From Zobellia uliginosa (GTDB taxonomy: Bacteria; Bacteroidota; Bacteroidia; Flavobacteriales; Flavobacteriaceae), in NCBI RefSeq assembly GCF_018860745.1, contig NZ_JAHKPY010000015.1:124001-188000 (forward strand): a DNA stretch of 64,000 bases, written 5' to 3'. The stretch's first letter is position 1. Each line of letters starts with the position of its first letter. The notes under the pieces are model-generated. The model was given only the letters and a program-made list of their open reading frames with translations. It searched no databases and was not told the origin of the DNA. Positions 10,388-63,995 of the stretch are shown here, one piece after another. Both the position numbers and the translations under genes were made by a program.

Positions 10388-11551
10388 TTATCCTAACGCC
10401 TGAGAAATATCGGCAATAATATCATCTATATGCTCTAGACCTACGGAGACTCGCACCATACCATCCGTAATTCCTGTTTCTGCCCTTTCCGCTGTAGAAA
10501 GTTTACTGTGTGTAGTAGACGCCGGATGGGTTATAATACTACGTGCATCACCTAAATTTGCGGACAGCGATAAAAGCTCAATAGAATCGAAGAAATTTTT
10601 ACCAGCTTCCACGCCTCCCTTTACTTCAAAAGCAACTACACAGCCACCTGCTTTCATTTGCTTTTTAGCAATTTCATATTTAGGGTGCGATTTTAAAAAC
10701 GGGTATTTAACCCAGTTTACTTTTTCATGTCCTTCTAGAAACTCCGCTAATTTTAAAGCATTTTCACAATGACGATCTACTCGAACAGCCAATGTCTCTA
10801 AGCTCTTAGAAAGCACCCAAGCATTAAATGGCGATAATGCAGGGCCTGTAATTCTTGAGAACCGATATACTTTATCAATCAATTCTTTTGAGCCTACAGT
10901 AATACCTGCAAGAACCCGACCTTGCCCGTCCATTAATTTTGTTCCGGAGTGGATTACCAAATCCGCCCCAAACTTTATAGGTTGTTGCAAGTAAGGAGAA
11001 GCAAAACAGTTATCGATTACCAAAATCAAATTATGTTTTTTAGCAATCTTACCCAAGACCTCTAAATCAAGAACATCTACCCCTGGGTTGGTGGGAGACT
11101 CTGCATATATGATTTTAGTTTTCGGTGTAATCAACGCTTCGATTCCCTCTAAATCATCAATCTTAAAATACGAATGGTCAATATTCCATTTTGGAAAGAA
11201 ATTAGTGAACAACGAATGGGTTGAACCAAAAATATTACGTGCGGACAATACATGGTCTCCACTATCCAGAAGTGCTGCCAAAGTCGAAAATACAGCGGCC
11301 ATACCAGAAGCAAAAGCAAATCCGTTTTCAGCACCTTCCATCTGGCATACCTTCTCAATAAACTCCGAAGAATTCGGGTTTGAATACCGAGAATAGATAT
11401 TACGTTCTTTTTCTTCCGCAAACGAGGCACGCATATCTTCTGCATCTTCAAACACAAAACTAGAGGTCATGTACATAGGTACAGAATGCTCTAAGTTTTT
11501 AGTACGTTCTAACTGTGTTCTAATGGCGTTCGTTTCAAATTTCTTTTCCAT
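10388..11551 (-). CDS. metZ: O-succinyl/O-acetylhomoserine sulfhydrylase-like PLP enzyme (MetZ type)
   Basis: 387 residues, Cys/Met metabolism PLP family. The PLP lysine is Lys205 in VIHSGTKLMDGQGR; the DGQGR continuation is typical of MetZ rather than cystathionine gamma-synthase. ASGMAAV near residue 81 and SxxTNPGVDVLD near 152 also match. It would make homocysteine from activated homoserine and sulfide, but cystathionine gamma-synthase or lyase activity cannot be excluded. It is the last gene of the operon, 49 bp after the fusion gene, and a terminator follows. Confidence 0.8.
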   Translation of the reverse strand: MEKKFETNAIRTQLERTKNLEHSVPMYMTSSFVFEDAEDMRASFAEEKERNIYSRYSNPNSSEFIEKVCQMEGAENGFAFASGMAAVFSTLAALLDSGDHVLSARNIFGSTHSLFTNFFPKWNIDHSYFKIDDLEGIEALITPKTKIIYAESPTNPGVDVLDLEVLGKIAKKHNLILVIDNCFASPYLQQPIKFGADLVIHSGTKLMDGQGRVLAGITVGSKELIDKVYRFSRITGPALSPFNAWVLSKSLETLAVRVDRHCENALKLAEFLEGHEKVNWVKYPFLKSHPKYEIAKKQMKAGGCVVAFEVKGGVEAGKNFFDSIELLSLSANLGDARSIITHPASTTHSKLSTAERAETGITDGMVRVSVGLEHIDDIIADISQALG

Positions 11552-11600: not shown

Positions 11601-14600
11601 TTATCCTTTTTCGGCTATACGGAGAATATCTCCAAAAACACCTCGTGCCGTAACAGCGGCACCCGCTCCTGCTCCTTGAATCACTAACGGATTCTCTCCA
11701 TAGGACTCCGTATAAATCTCAATAATCGAATCAGAACCTTTTACTTGTCCCAATGCGCTTTCTTTAGGCACCGAAACCAGTTTTACATCTAAAATACCTT
11801 TTTCTTCTTGAAGGTTTCCGTGTAAATCGCCCACATACCTAAGTACATGACCTGGTTTCTGGTTCTTTTTAATTTCATTGAACTTCGCATCTACCAAATC
11901 TAGGTTATCAAGAAAATGGTTTACATCGCCATCTCTCAATTCTTCCGGTATCAGGTTTTCAATATTTATATCCGAAAACTCGTTGCTCAAATCCAATTCT
12001 CTGGCAAGAATCAACAGCTTTCTACCTACGTCATTACCTGAAAGATCTTCACGTGGATCTGGCTCCGTAAAGCCGCTTTTCATTGCTGCCATTAATATGT
12101 TCGAAAATGGCTCTTCGCTCTCAGAAAAAGTATTGAAAATATAACTTAACGAGCCCGAAAACACACCTTTTATACCTGTTATATTTTCACCTGAAAGATG
12201 TAATAAGCGTATCGTATCTATTAACGGAAGACCAGCACCTACATTAGTTTCATACAAGTATTGCTTCTGATGTTTATCCAATTCTTCACGCAATAATTGA
12301 TAATAATCAAAGCCTAGTGTGTTCGCTATTTTGTTGGATGAAACAATGTCAAAACCATTCTCGACGAATTCAAAATAATGAGCTACAAAATCACTATTCG
12401 CTGTATTATCAACTACAATTAAATTCTCTAAATGGTGCTCTTTGGCATAGGCAATAACATCTTCAACCTTATATGCAACACCTTTATCTTCTATAGCGGA
12501 CTTCCAGTTTTTCGGAATCCCTTTTTTGTTCAATAAAATCTTTCTAGAATTGGCCACTGCAAAGACATTCAAGTCTATACCTTTTCTTTTCTGTATGGTT
12601 TTAGTTGATTTTAAAATCTGGTCAATTAGTGTTCCTCCAACATTTCCGTGGCCAAAAATCACCAAATTTATCTTTTTACTAATACCAAAAATCTGTCCGT
12701 GCATTACATTCAATGCTTTGCTCAAATCAGATTTTTTAAGCACAAGACTTACGTTCTTACCAGACACCGTGTTATTGAAAAGTAACGGTGCTATTTGATT
12801 TTTAATCAATGCATTATACGGCCTATGAAATGTACTCAAATCTTGACCCACAATGGATATGACAGACACCTCATCCAGCACGGTAATCATGTTGATGTCC
12901 TTGGACTCATAATCACTTTCAAACTCCCTGTCCAGTGCTCTTTTGGCCTCTAGAGCTTGACTTGCATTTACCACTAACCCAATCCCTCTTTCAGAAGAAC
13001 CTTGGGAAATAATACTCACACTAATATTACTCTTTTGAAGCGCACTGAAAATACGGGCATCCACCCCTACTTTACCGAGAAGCCCTCTACCCTCTACATT
13101 AATCATCGAAACATTTTCGATAACGGATAATGATTTTATACCTCCTTCTTTGGTCTTTGCGCTAATTAGCGTGCCTTCATTATCATTATTGAACGTATTT
13201 AAAATACGTAGCGGAATGTTCTTTTCTATTAATGGAATGATGGTCTTGGCATGCAAGATAGTCGCCCCAAAATTCGCCAATTCATTTGCCTCGCCATACG
13301 ATAGATGCGAAATGCGTTTGGCATCGGAAACCAAATCAGGATTGGCAGTATAAATACCATCTACATGGGTATAGTTCTGAAGCTCTTCCGCATTCAAAAA
13401 ATTAGCGAACAATGCTGCCGAATAGTTACTACCGTTACGGCCTAACGTAGTTGTATCCCCATTTTCATCGGAAGAAATAAAACCTGTAATAATAGGCACC
13501 GCGTCTGCTTCTAATTTAGCAAATTTACGTATCACGTTTTCTTTCGACAAAGCTTCATTAACCGAAGCATCACCAAAATTGGAATCGGTTTTAATCAACT
13601 CCCTAGCATCTAACATTACCGCATTTATACCTTTGCCAATAAGTAACTTCGTAACTAACTTTGCTGAAATAAGTTCGCCGAAAGACAATAATTGGTCCTT
13701 GATTTTTAGACTGTAATCGCCTAAAAGAGAAACCCCTTCAAGCAATTTTGCTAGGTCTTTGAACTCTTTAGAAAGGTTGACATTCTTAAAGGTATGCTTC
13801 TGATATTTTTCAAAAGTTTCAAAATCTTTATAATAGTTCTCTCCATTAGCTGCTTTCTCCAAAATACCTTCTAATTGGTCTGTTCCTTTAGCACGAGCAG
13901 ACAGAACAACTGAAATATTCTCACCTTCTTTTACCTTGTTGGAAACAATATCCAAAACACGCTCCAACCCTTCACCGTTGGCAAGAGATTTTCCACCGAA
14001 CTTCAATACCTTAGGCTGTTTAGATTTTCCATTTCTACTAAAAACGGGTTCTAGAAGCCTTTCCATCTGATCAAATTCAATTAAAAAGGCATCGTGACCA
14101 TGAAGGGAATGTACTTCGCCATACGTAACGTTACCATTGGCCTGCGCCAACCGCTTAAAGGTCTCTTTATTCTCTTTTGCCGTAAAGAACAAATCAGAAT
14201 CCACTCCAATTATATGAATGTTTACATCACTATTTTGAAGGTCGATAAAATTCTGTTCCCCATTTCTCATGACATCTATAGTCTTGAGTAATTGGTTCAT
14301 GAGTTTATAGGCCGAAAGCTGAAAACGTTCTTGTAATTTTTCGCCATGGTGCCGCAACCAACTCTCCACGTTAAAAACCTGAAGCGCCTCATTTGTGCTC
14401 CGTTTGAATCGCTCTTTAAACGATTCTGGCGTACGATAGCACAACATGGCATGCATGCGTGCATCATGAACAGGCTGTTTACTATTGACCAGAAATTGCT
14501 CTTGAATCTGACAGTTTCCAATTAACCAATCCGTAGACTTCCAATCCGAAGCAACGGGAATTAGATGTTCCATAATCTTAGGGTTAATAGCTGCCATTTC

Positions 14601-14987
14601 CCAAGCAATGCCACCTCCTAAAGAGCCACCCAAAAGCGCAAATAATTTATTGATTTCCAGTTTCTGAAGACCCAACAAGAAAATTCTTGCAATGTCTCCC
14701 GCTACGAAATCTTTATAATTATCAATTATGAATTTGTCATATCCGTTCCCCGGAATATTAAAACAAAGAATTGTGTACTTTTTAGTATCGATACATTTAC
14801 CTTCTCCTATGAGTGCAGACCACCAGCCATCATCTCCCGTAACGTTGGAATTACCGGTTAAAGCATGATTGACCTGTACAATTGGCGCTGTGTGCAATTC
14901 TTGACCAAACAGTTGATAAGACAACTCAATATCTTGAGTAACCCCACTGATCGTAGTATAGTTCGCTAATTTCAAATGATGAAGCAT
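11601..14987 (-). CDS. Trifunctional fusion: homoserine O-acyltransferase, aspartokinase, homoserine dehydrogenase
   Basis: One open frame of 1128 residues. Residues 1-315 are a MetX-type alpha/beta hydrolase with nucleophile Ser122 (LGGSLGGG), Asp265 (VDSDLF) and His298 (HGHDAF). Residues 326-620 are aspartokinase (KFGGKS at 329-334; TTLGRNGSNYSAA near 513), followed by two ACT regulatory domains (about 622-690 and 705-765). Residues 772-1128 are homoserine dehydrogenase (GHGNVGG at 779-785; TEPDPREDLSGNDVGRK near 1010). It would carry three steps from aspartate to acyl-homoserine, leaving aspartate-semialdehyde dehydrogenase to another gene. The ATG follows metY by 70 bp in the riboswitch-led operon. 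Acetyl versus succinyl donor is not determined. No frameshift or stop is seen at the junctions. Confidence 0.93.
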   Translation of the reverse strand: MLHHLKLANYTTISGVTQDIELSYQLFGQELHTAPIVQVNHALTGNSNVTGDDGWWSALIGEGKCIDTKKYTILCFNIPGNGYDKFIIDNYKDFVAGDIARIFLLGLQKLEINKLFALLGGSLGGGIAWEMAAINPKIMEHLIPVASDWKSTDWLIGNCQIQEQFLVNSKQPVHDARMHAMLCYRTPESFKERFKRSTNEALQVFNVESWLRHHGEKLQERFQLSAYKLMNQLLKTIDVMRNGEQNFIDLQNSDVNIHIIGVDSDLFFTAKENKETFKRLAQANGNVTYGEVHSLHGHDAFLIEFDQMERLLEPVFSRNGKSKQPKVLKFGGKSLANGEGLERVLDIVSNKVKEGENISVVLSARAKGTDQLEGILEKAANGENYYKDFETFEKYQKHTFKNVNLSKEFKDLAKLLEGVSLLGDYSLKIKDQLLSFGELISAKLVTKLLIGKGINAVMLDARELIKTDSNFGDASVNEALSKENVIRKFAKLEADAVPIITGFISSDENGDTTTLGRNGSNYSAALFANFLNAEELQNYTHVDGIYTANPDLVSDAKRISHLSYGEANELANFGATILHAKTIIPLIEKNIPLRILNTFNNDNEGTLISAKTKEGGIKSLSVIENVSMINVEGRGLLGKVGVDARIFSALQKSNISVSIISQGSSERGIGLVVNASQALEAKRALDREFESDYESKDINMITVLDEVSVISIVGQDLSTFHRPYNALIKNQIAPLLFNNTVSGKNVSLVLKKSDLSKALNVMHGQIFGISKKINLVIFGHGNVGGTLIDQILKSTKTIQKRKGIDLNVFAVANSRKILLNKKGIPKNWKSAIEDKGVAYKVEDVIAYAKEHHLENLIVVDNTANSDFVAHYFEFVENGFDIVSSNKIANTLGFDYYQLLREELDKHQKQYLYETNVGAGLPLIDTIRLLHLSGENITGIKGVFSGSLSYIFNTFSESEEPFSNILMAAMKSGFTEPDPREDLSGNDVGRKLLILARELDLSNEFSDINIENLIPEELRDGDVNHFLDNLDLVDAKFNEIKKNQKPGHVLRYVGDLHGNLQEEKGILDVKLVSVPKESALGQVKGSDSIIEIYTESYGENPLVIQGAGAGAAVTARGVFGDILRIAEKG

Positions 14988-15057: not shown

Positions 15058-16332
15058 TTAAAGTACTCCGAAAGCGTTTTGCAAATCGGCTTTTAAATCT
15101 TCAACATCCTCTAAACCAACAGACAAACGAATTAAATCCTGACCTACACCTGCCGCATCTTGCTGTTCTGCAGACAATTGTTGGTGCGTTGTACTTGCTG
15201 GGTGAATGATCAATGATTTGGTATCACCAATATTGGCCAGTAAAGAGAAAATCTTAGTAGCATCCGTAACTTTTTTAGCTGCCTCAAAACCACCTTTTAA
15301 TCCAAAAGTAACCAAACCACTTTGTCCTTTTGGCAAATATTCCTGTGCTAAATCATAGTATTTGTTGCTCTTTAGACCAGGGTAATTTACCCATGCCACT
15401 TCATCTCTTCCTTCTAACCAAGTTGCTAATTCCAGAGCATTAGCACTATGTTGCTTGATACGTACATTCAACGTTTCCAAACCTTGAATAATCTGAAATG
15501 CATTAAACGGACTCAAAGCACCACCAAAATCACGTAATCCTTCTAAAATCAACTTAAAAGTGAAAGCCGCTGCTCCTAAAGCTTCGCTGTATACTAATCC
15601 GTGGTAACCTGCAGAAGGTTCGGTAAATTCCGGGAACTTTCCGTTGGTCCAATCAAAGGTCCCGGCATCAATTATAGCACCTCCCAAAGAAGAACCATGA
15701 CCGCCAATATATTTGGTAAGTGAATGAATAACCAGGTTAGCGCCATGCTCAATTGGATTCAATAGCGCAGGAGAAGCAACCGTATTATCAACTATAAAAG
15801 GAACTTGTGCCGCTTTAGCTTGTTTTGAAATCGCTTTTAGATCAAGTACGTCTAATTTTGGGTTTCCTAAAGATTCCACAAAGAAAGCTCTTGTATTATC
15901 TTGAACCGCTTTGCCAAAACTTTCCGGATCAGAAGCATCTACAAATGTAGTAGTGATTCCCAATCTTGGCAAAGTAACATTCAATAAAGTAAATGTACCA
16001 CCGTATAAACTACTAGAAGCCACGATATGATCGCCAGCTTTTAATAGGGTCATTAATCCTGTAGAGATAGCTGAAGTTCCCGAAGCAAAAACAACGGCTC
16101 CTACACCACCTTCAACAGCCGCTAAACGATCTTGAAGAATTTGGTTTGTAGGGTTGTTCAGCCTGGTATATATAAAACCTAACTCAGCAAGTGAAAATAA
16201 GTTTGCTGCGTGGTCCGTATCGTTAAAAACGTAAGAAGACGTTTGGTAAATTGGTACCGCACGGGTTCCTCCTGTTTGAGCGGGATCGTGTCCGGCATGT
16301 AATGCGTTGGTTGAGAATTTCTGATCACTCAT
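15058..16332 (-). CDS. metY: O-acetylhomoserine sulfhydrylase
   Basis: 424 residues, the longer form typical of MetY. The PLP lysine is Lys207 in VIHSLTKYIGGHG, and PTNQILQDRLAAVEGG near residue 61 and IHPASTTHQQL near 386 are family features. It makes homocysteine from O-acetylhomoserine and sulfide by direct sulfhydrylation. It is the first gene after the SAM-I riboswitch, and the acyl-homoserine donor is made by the fusion protein encoded next. Confidence 0.94.
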   Translation of the reverse strand: MSDQKFSTNALHAGHDPAQTGGTRAVPIYQTSSYVFNDTDHAANLFSLAELGFIYTRLNNPTNQILQDRLAAVEGGVGAVVFASGTSAISTGLMTLLKAGDHIVASSSLYGGTFTLLNVTLPRLGITTTFVDASDPESFGKAVQDNTRAFFVESLGNPKLDVLDLKAISKQAKAAQVPFIVDNTVASPALLNPIEHGANLVIHSLTKYIGGHGSSLGGAIIDAGTFDWTNGKFPEFTEPSAGYHGLVYSEALGAAAFTFKLILEGLRDFGGALSPFNAFQIIQGLETLNVRIKQHSANALELATWLEGRDEVAWVNYPGLKSNKYYDLAQEYLPKGQSGLVTFGLKGGFEAAKKVTDATKIFSLLANIGDTKSLIIHPASTTHQQLSAEQQDAAGVGQDLIRLSVGLEDVEDLKADLQNAFGVL

Positions 16333-16453: not shown

Positions 16454-16458
16454 GTTTT

Positions 16459-16567
16459 GTTATCTGTCCCATTATTACAGAGATAGAATGTAGCACCTTC
16501 TCTGCATTAAGAAGCAAAGGGTTGCTAAGGTTTCAAAGGGTCTATTCCCTCCACCTTTCTTGATAAC
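16459..16567 (-). ncRNA. SAM-I (S-box) riboswitch
   Basis: The minus strand reads GTTATCAAGAAAGGTGGAGG, then a GGG/CCC hairpin, GAAACCTTAGCAACC, a variable arm, GGTGCTA and finally ACAGATAAC. This is the S-box order: P1 closes as GTTATC / GATAAC, P3 as TAGCAACC / GGTGCTA. It lies 126 bp upstream of metY, on the same strand, and is expected to switch the metY-fusion-metZ operon off when SAM is high. Confidence 0.93.
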
Positions 16568-16598
16568 TATTCAATACGTGTTTGAACTTTTGGAACTA

Positions 16599-17902: not shown

Positions 17903-17973
17903 ACAAACTTTTATTTTTTCTAAAAGGATTTGAACGAATGCCGAAAAGAAGATGATGCGAATAATTCAACATC

Positions 17974-18052
17974 AACTGCTTTAGCATTTTTTTATTTTGT
18001 AGCTCAATTTAAGCTCAAAAACAGAGGTTGCAATCAGTCAAATCCCTCCTCT
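17974..18052 (-). ncRNA. Probable SAM-II (or related SAM-V) riboswitch in the metK leader
   Basis: On the minus strand AGAGG opens a stem closed by CCTCT (18052-18048 with 18027-18023). Its loop reads GATTTGACTGATTGCAA, the SAM-II core, and downstream TGCTAAAGCAGTT allows the pseudoknot: GACTG (18039-18035) pairs with CAGTT (17978-17974). GCTAAA is also a conserved SAM-II 3' element. The element starts about 12 nt after the predicted transcription start and ends 72 nt before the metK ATG. It is unlike the S-box in front of metY. SAM-V shares this core, so the exact class needs a covariance search. Confidence 0.72.
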
Positions 18053-18070
18053 TTATTTTTAATTAGGACG

Positions 18071-61629: not shown

Positions 61630-61817
61630 AATTAGGAATTAACGGGTTATATATTTATATGAAACTGTATAAGCCAAAAAGTCACTAAAAAGGAGAAAAA
61701 AATAGATATTTCCCTAAATTAAGAGCAAAAAGAGCCTTTTTAGGCAATTAAAGAGAGAAAAACTAAGTATTCGCTAAATATGTAGAATTTGGAATAACAA
61801 AAAGAGAAGAAATACTG

Positions 61818-61892
61818 TGGGTCATACTGGATTCGAACCAGTGACCTCTGCCCTGTCAAGGCAGCGCTCTAAACCAACTGAGCTAATGACCC
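61818..61892 (-). tRNA. tRNA-Val (anticodon GAC)
   Basis: The minus strand folds as a tRNA: acceptor GGGTCAT / ATGACCC, D arm TAGCTCAGTTGG, anticodon stem CTGCC / GGCAG with loop TTGACAG, T arm GGTTCGAATCC. Reading positions 34-36 gives GAC, which decodes GUC (valine), not aspartate. CCA is not encoded. Confidence 0.95.
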
Positions 61893-63756: not shown

Positions 63757-63920
63757 CAGAATAAACTATACATTATTCTCAAAATATTCTTTTAACAGAG
63801 CGGATATAGCTTGAGAAAATCCGACATAGTATCTGCCCAAGGTTTCTGAGTATAATATGCAGGTTACAAATGCCATAAAACGAAAAAATCCCCAAACATA
63901 TTAATGCTTGAGGATTCTTG

Positions 63921-63995
63921 TGGGCAATGAGGGATTCGAACCCCCGACCCCCTCGGTGTAAACGAGGTGCTCTGAACCAACTGAGCTAATTGCCC
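63921..63995 (-). tRNA. tRNA-Val (anticodon TAC)
   Basis: The minus strand folds as a tRNA with acceptor GGGCAAT / ATTGCCC, anticodon stem CCTCG / CGAGG, loop TTTACAC (anticodon TAC, decoding GUA and related valine codons) and T arm GGGTTCGAATCCC. It is 2 kb from the GAC isoacceptor and on the same strand. Confidence 0.95.

Follow-up and report, generated by a model that had tools for sequence, protein, structure and literature searches.

The closest described counterparts of the protein analysed here are the bifunctional aspartokinase-homoserine dehydrogenases of Escherichia coli, ThrA and MetL, in which an aspartokinase (AK), an ACT region and a homoserine dehydrogenase (HSD) follow one another on a single chain. 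In the plant AK-HSD enzymes, control of the kinase falls to the first ACT site and that of the dehydrogenase to the second. Solved homoserine O-acetyltransferases of the MetX type (PDB 2b61, 2pl5) and methionine operons headed by SAM-I riboswitches provide the other points of comparison. We analysed a 64,000-nucleotide stretch of Zobellia uliginosa DNA (the window) in which one gene has the AK-ACT-HSD order of ThrA and MetL and resembles them over their full length but, unlike either of them, carries a MetX domain at its N terminus. It also differs from ThrA, MetL and LysC, which have Asp at both sites, by having Asn and His at the positions of LysC D202 and D222, and from ThrA by a rewritten second ACT motif. 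Like E. coli metL, which adjoins metB, the gene sits among methionine genes; as in known SAM-I methionine operons, a match to RF00162 precedes metY and the fused gene, although the operon here, unlike those, also holds a homoserine dehydrogenase. Our preferred reading (probability about 0.6) is a methionine-dedicated enzyme that would both make and acylate homoserine and that is built round a probable pseudokinase. We found no description of a MetX-AK-HSD fusion or of such an inactive kinase in the literature searched by title and abstract, which covered few subscription papers, and one may be in print elsewhere. The features on which the argument rests are as follows.

11601..14987, minus strand: fused gene, MetX - aspartokinase-like - ACT-ACT - homoserine dehydrogenase, 1128 aa (ORF, Pfam, NCBIfam)
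14034..14987, minus strand: MetX-type homoserine acyltransferase domain, residues 1-318, with S122, D265 and H298 present (Pfam, NCBIfam, alignment)
13188..14012, minus strand: aspartokinase-like catalytic domain, residues 326-600 (Pfam, alignment)
12693..13142, minus strand: ACT region, about residues 616-765 (Pfam and alignment with ThrA)
11607..12677, minus strand: homoserine dehydrogenase domain, residues 771-1127 (Pfam, alignment)
15058..16332, minus strand: metY, O-acetylhomoserine sulfhydrylase, 70 bases ahead of the fused gene (TIGR01326, 619 bits, cut-off 495)
10388..11551, minus strand: metZ-like PLP enzyme, 49 bases after the fused gene (nearest NCBIfam model O-succinylhomoserine sulfhydrylase, 501 bits, just below the cut-off of 522)
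16457..16569, minus strand: SAM-I (S-box) riboswitch, RF00162, ahead of metY and the fused gene (73.2 bits against an Rfam gathering threshold of 44.4)
17971-18057, minus strand: SAM-II riboswitch, ahead of the neighbouring metK

The fusion is real. The gene is a single uninterrupted frame of 1128 codons (14987..11601, minus strand), and Pfam finds in its product, in order, an abhydrolase domain (37-147), an amino-acid kinase domain (326-597), one ACT domain (629-689), an NAD-binding domain (779-913) and a homoserine dehydrogenase domain (921-1122), which confirms the claim of the preliminary description that MetX, aspartokinase and homoserine dehydrogenase parts share one frame. The model for bifunctional aspartokinase-homoserine dehydrogenase I (NF006959) scores 801.3 bits, above its curated cut-off of 726. 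The same description had proposed a search of genomes for this domain order and had named a frame error between the parts as what would overturn it. All four parts lie in one ORF in 80/80 named loci (the top 80 among 487 confirmed matches, and thus a sample of near relatives, the closest being Zobellia species at 95-96% identity), and 93 of the 199 family genomes, among the matches listed, match without interruption over a stretch that begins no later than residue 11 and ends no earlier than residue 1032. Relatives with an uninterrupted frame exclude such an error, and sequencing error and chance read-through are both ruled out by these counts. In 15 further family genomes, metX and AK-HSD are separate neighbours (about 760 bases apart at one such locus, L140), giving 108 carriers, all counted by hand among the matches listed. 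Within the stretch fetched, metY and a metZ-like gene each accompany the fusion in 78 of the same 80 named loci.

At the N terminus, S122, D265 and H298, which we take to be the catalytic triad of MetX, are invariant in 148/148 aligned MetX-type sequences, and the full homoserine acyltransferase with these three residues that had been proposed is borne out. They align with the corresponding residues of 2b61 and 2pl5, to which the domain is similar throughout, the motifs flanking Ser, Asp and His included, although it is about 34 residues shorter than 2b61 over the aligned stretch and, unlike these two acetyltransferases, is fused and falls below the NCBIfam MetX cut-offs (172 vs. 331, 169 vs. 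500 and 143 vs. 475 bits). The MetX part is therefore divergent as well as short. We found no match to MetA in the genome and nothing convincing as another MetX (only two weak matches of 22-26 bits), so the fused gene is the genome's best candidate for homoserine acylation. The product is probably O-acetylhomoserine, judging from the adjacent metY only.

The C-terminal dehydrogenase also looks intact in sequence; equivalents of yeast K117, E208, D219 and K223, presumably the catalytic residues of homoserine dehydrogenase, are present in 143/143 aligned rows, the window included. Pfam calls one ACT domain, and we placed the second by alignment with ThrA. The first keeps the motif QGSSER, with the effector-motif Gln in 143/143 rows, while in the second NNTVSGKN replaces the AQG.SER-type motif; this Gln, present in 30/30 ThrA-type rows, is Asn in 142/143 and belongs to a new conserved motif, which makes threonine control of the dehydrogenase uncertain. 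If the plant scheme holds, threonine should not shut the dehydrogenase in the usual way, and this would fit a role in methionine synthesis.

The gene had also been placed behind a SAM riboswitch together with metY, and the SAM-I match listed above agrees with this. Because a homoserine dehydrogenase lies in the operon, the branch-point step would itself come under SAM control. Scans for SAM-I riboswitches were positive in 10/11 fused loci and in 11/14 split or kinase-less ones; in several split loci the element stands immediately before metX, and in L149 it lies downstream of the genes. SAM-I and SAM-II riboswitches stand side by side in the window, and both classes occur in 5/11 fused and 7/14 split or kinase-less loci. 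Just outside the window, a second SAM-I riboswitch (G000:C11:120225-120331, L177) precedes genes of the homocysteine methyltransferase, MetH and MetF types. With an intact acyltransferase triad, an intact-looking dehydrogenase and a SAM-riboswitch operon shared with metY, the predicted bias of flux towards methionine is likely, as is the dedication of homoserine making and acylation to this amino acid.

The kinase domain is the doubtful part. In the window it has N521, H541, D551 and T576 at the positions of LysC D202, D222, R232 and K257, together with K333, R365 and N518 (alignment without the duplicate loci L001, L002, L006-L010 and L176). Asn replaces the Asp of GRGGSD (D202) in the window and in 190/190 distinct MetX-linked kinase domains, the D222 position is His in the window and in 184/190 (3 Asn, 2 Asp, 1 Ile), and R232 is kept in 2/190. 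Both Asp residues are kept in 30/30 ThrA-type and 11/11 monofunctional kinases (distinct sequences only, as for the 190), in all three E. coli kinases (ThrA, MetL and LysC) and in 5/5 solved kinases among the matches listed; the R232 position holds R or K in 29/30 of the ThrA-type and R in 11/11 of the monofunctional sequences. Representatives under 80% identity have N202 in 72/72 and H222 in 70/72. The change at K257 does not count, because 8/11 monofunctional kinases, as well as E. coli MetL, also have no Lys there. We take D202 of LysC to be the counterpart of acetylglutamate kinase D162. PMC2851564 describes D162 as a key catalytic residue and reports that a mutant disrupted function.

Unlike these positions, the aspartate side of the pocket is kept. 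K8, S39, T45 and E119 are found in 190/190 distinct MetX-linked sequences, and R198, an aspartate contact, in 186/190; the window equivalents of K8, E119 and R198 (K329, E438 and R517) are all present. K8, presumably the catalytic lysine of LysC, is one of the eight aspartate-side sites we compared. PMC5481828 names six of the others as contacts and gives S39 in its design list. All eight are conserved at the 97% level (P 3.7e-5 vs. 80 of 277 columns), compared with 2/6 on the ATP side, where the six sites come from a table of key residues in PMC3195717, a passage of which links only some of them explicitly to ATP. Because true ThrA gives 8/8 and 3/6 in the same test, what matters in the ATP-side contrast is the identity of the changed residues. 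We favour the view that the window's protein has lost kinase chemistry, and it is possible that the retained aspartate pocket is used as a sensor. The proposed three-enzyme chain accordingly looks intact for the acyltransferase and the dehydrogenase and is doubtful for the kinase, in which D202 and D222 are replaced and which related lineages do not have.

Several such lineages were seen. Within the family, four loci (L146, L147, L148 and L154; Pfam run on L148 and L154) have a homoserine dehydrogenase alone, which adjoins metX in three of them, no metX being seen in L146. In a neighbouring family (f2), MetX adjoins an ACT-homoserine dehydrogenase protein without a kinase in 11/11 loci read (L152, L153, L266-L272, L281 and L282), and in all 19 f2 genomes among the matches listed the match starts no earlier than residue 607. 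ThrA was used to root a tree of the dehydrogenases, in which the fused and ThrA rows were thinned and L263, L268, L272, L279 and L281 left out; it unites MetX-linked forms and kinase-less relatives in one group (100/100), though its bootstrap had not settled and support is weak (91/4) for nesting the f2 rows among the fused ones. On this tree the kinase-less state takes four changes, of which well-supported branches force three, and the fused, split and kinase-less states together take 12; fusion and fission are frequent. Its deepest rows, L273 and L274, have N202 but keep D222, L277 and L278 have N202 and N222, and nearly all other MetX-linked rows have N202 and H222. The kinase thus seems to have been altered first and later dropped in some lines; long branches lead to the two deepest rows and join at the base of the tree, which leaves the order of the first steps unsure. 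L154 is perhaps a duplicate and not a loss, because L150 has a member of its divergent dehydrogenase group as an additional gene. This kinase-free group (L150:648-1802 and L154:3938-5098) does not match the usual homoserine dehydrogenase motif pattern, and in L150 it lies upstream of a MetX, AK-HSD pair.

Carrier genomes mostly have other aspartokinases. At least two aspartokinase matches were found in each of the 108 carriers among the matches listed in the 199 family genomes (places known for part of those matches only), and 7/9 carriers checked outside the family have a second one. The Zobellia genome has two other aspartokinase genes, one monofunctional and one AK-HSD that adjoins genes of the homoserine kinase and threonine synthase types. 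Two genomes of one genus (G496 and G508, 1.7 Mb, 97-99% complete; loci L277 and L278) gave no second aspartokinase match, the sole one being the MetX-linked form with N202 and N222; Asd, MetX and HSD are present in both, and dapA gave no match in either. If methionine is made from aspartate there, this kinase must work or a gene was missed, which suggests that the G496/G508 version works, provided that the genomes are complete.

These two genomes are one reason to consider a true three-activity enzyme, in which the kinase would work with an altered active site and feed its own dehydrogenase and acyltransferase. The kinase domain is as conserved as that of true ThrA in the family (mean pairwise identity 0.607 in 61 rows vs. 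0.609 in 20 rows) and so seems to have a job, its aspartate side is kept, the deepest relatives retain D222, and K8, K333 and H541 could conceivably replace the lost groups. Notwithstanding, N202 is fixed, H222 nearly so and R232 all but gone, several lineages have no kinase domain, and every family carrier among the matches listed has a second aspartokinase match; we regard a working kinase as rather unlikely in general, although it is by some way the strongest of the alternatives. A new activity, for example the phosphorylation or binding of a different acid in a pocket re-made by K333, R365, N518, N521 and H541, would account for the near-invariance of N518, N521 and H541, and of R365 (142/143), in MetX-linked kinase domains; however, the aspartate-side residues are unchanged, the neighbourhood suggests no substrate, and lineages without the kinase domain keep the rest, and we consider this improbable. 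Decay of a passenger domain under relaxed selection, which could explain changes from the deepest branches on, the later kinase-less forms, the four altered R198 residues and a kinase part whose dN exceeded that of the other three parts in 6/7 close pairs (two pairs gave identical values, and dN/dS between near relatives is mostly useless because dS is saturated), is disfavoured by an identity equal to that of true ThrA kinase domains and by the 97% conservation of 80 of 277 kinase columns, and has very little probability.

We therefore return to a methionine-dedicated enzyme built round a probable pseudokinase and consider how it might operate. At low SAM, the SAM-I riboswitch would permit expression of metY, the fused gene and the metZ-like gene. 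The other aspartokinases, with Asd, would supply aspartate semialdehyde, which the C-terminal dehydrogenase would convert into homoserine; the N-terminal MetX would acylate this, probably to O-acetylhomoserine, before homoserine kinase takes it, and MetY would then make homocysteine. The aspartokinase-like domain would be a conserved pseudokinase that most likely does not phosphorylate aspartate while keeping its aspartate-side residues, and it would join the ACT part to the dehydrogenase, where a ligand may serve as signal. A broader account, which we put forward tentatively and think clearly less likely than not, is that kinase chemistry was lost stepwise across a bacterial order (N202, then N or H222) with the aspartate pocket kept, that the domain is now an aspartate-sensing hub coupling the dehydrogenase to the fused MetX and committing aspartate semialdehyde to methionine, and that some lineages later discarded the kinase.

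If the preferred reading is true, the branch point would be settled by physical coupling, a single chain under a SAM riboswitch both making homoserine and acylating it. If the kinase is dead yet conserved, a large bacterial group has this gene misannotated as an aspartokinase, and the domain would plainly exemplify the conversion of a metabolic kinase into a scaffold or sensor. The fused, split and kinase-less versions offer natural controls.

Elsewhere in the window, two tRNA-Val genes with the anticodons gac and tac lie about 2 kb apart (61817-61892 and 63920-63995, minus strand).
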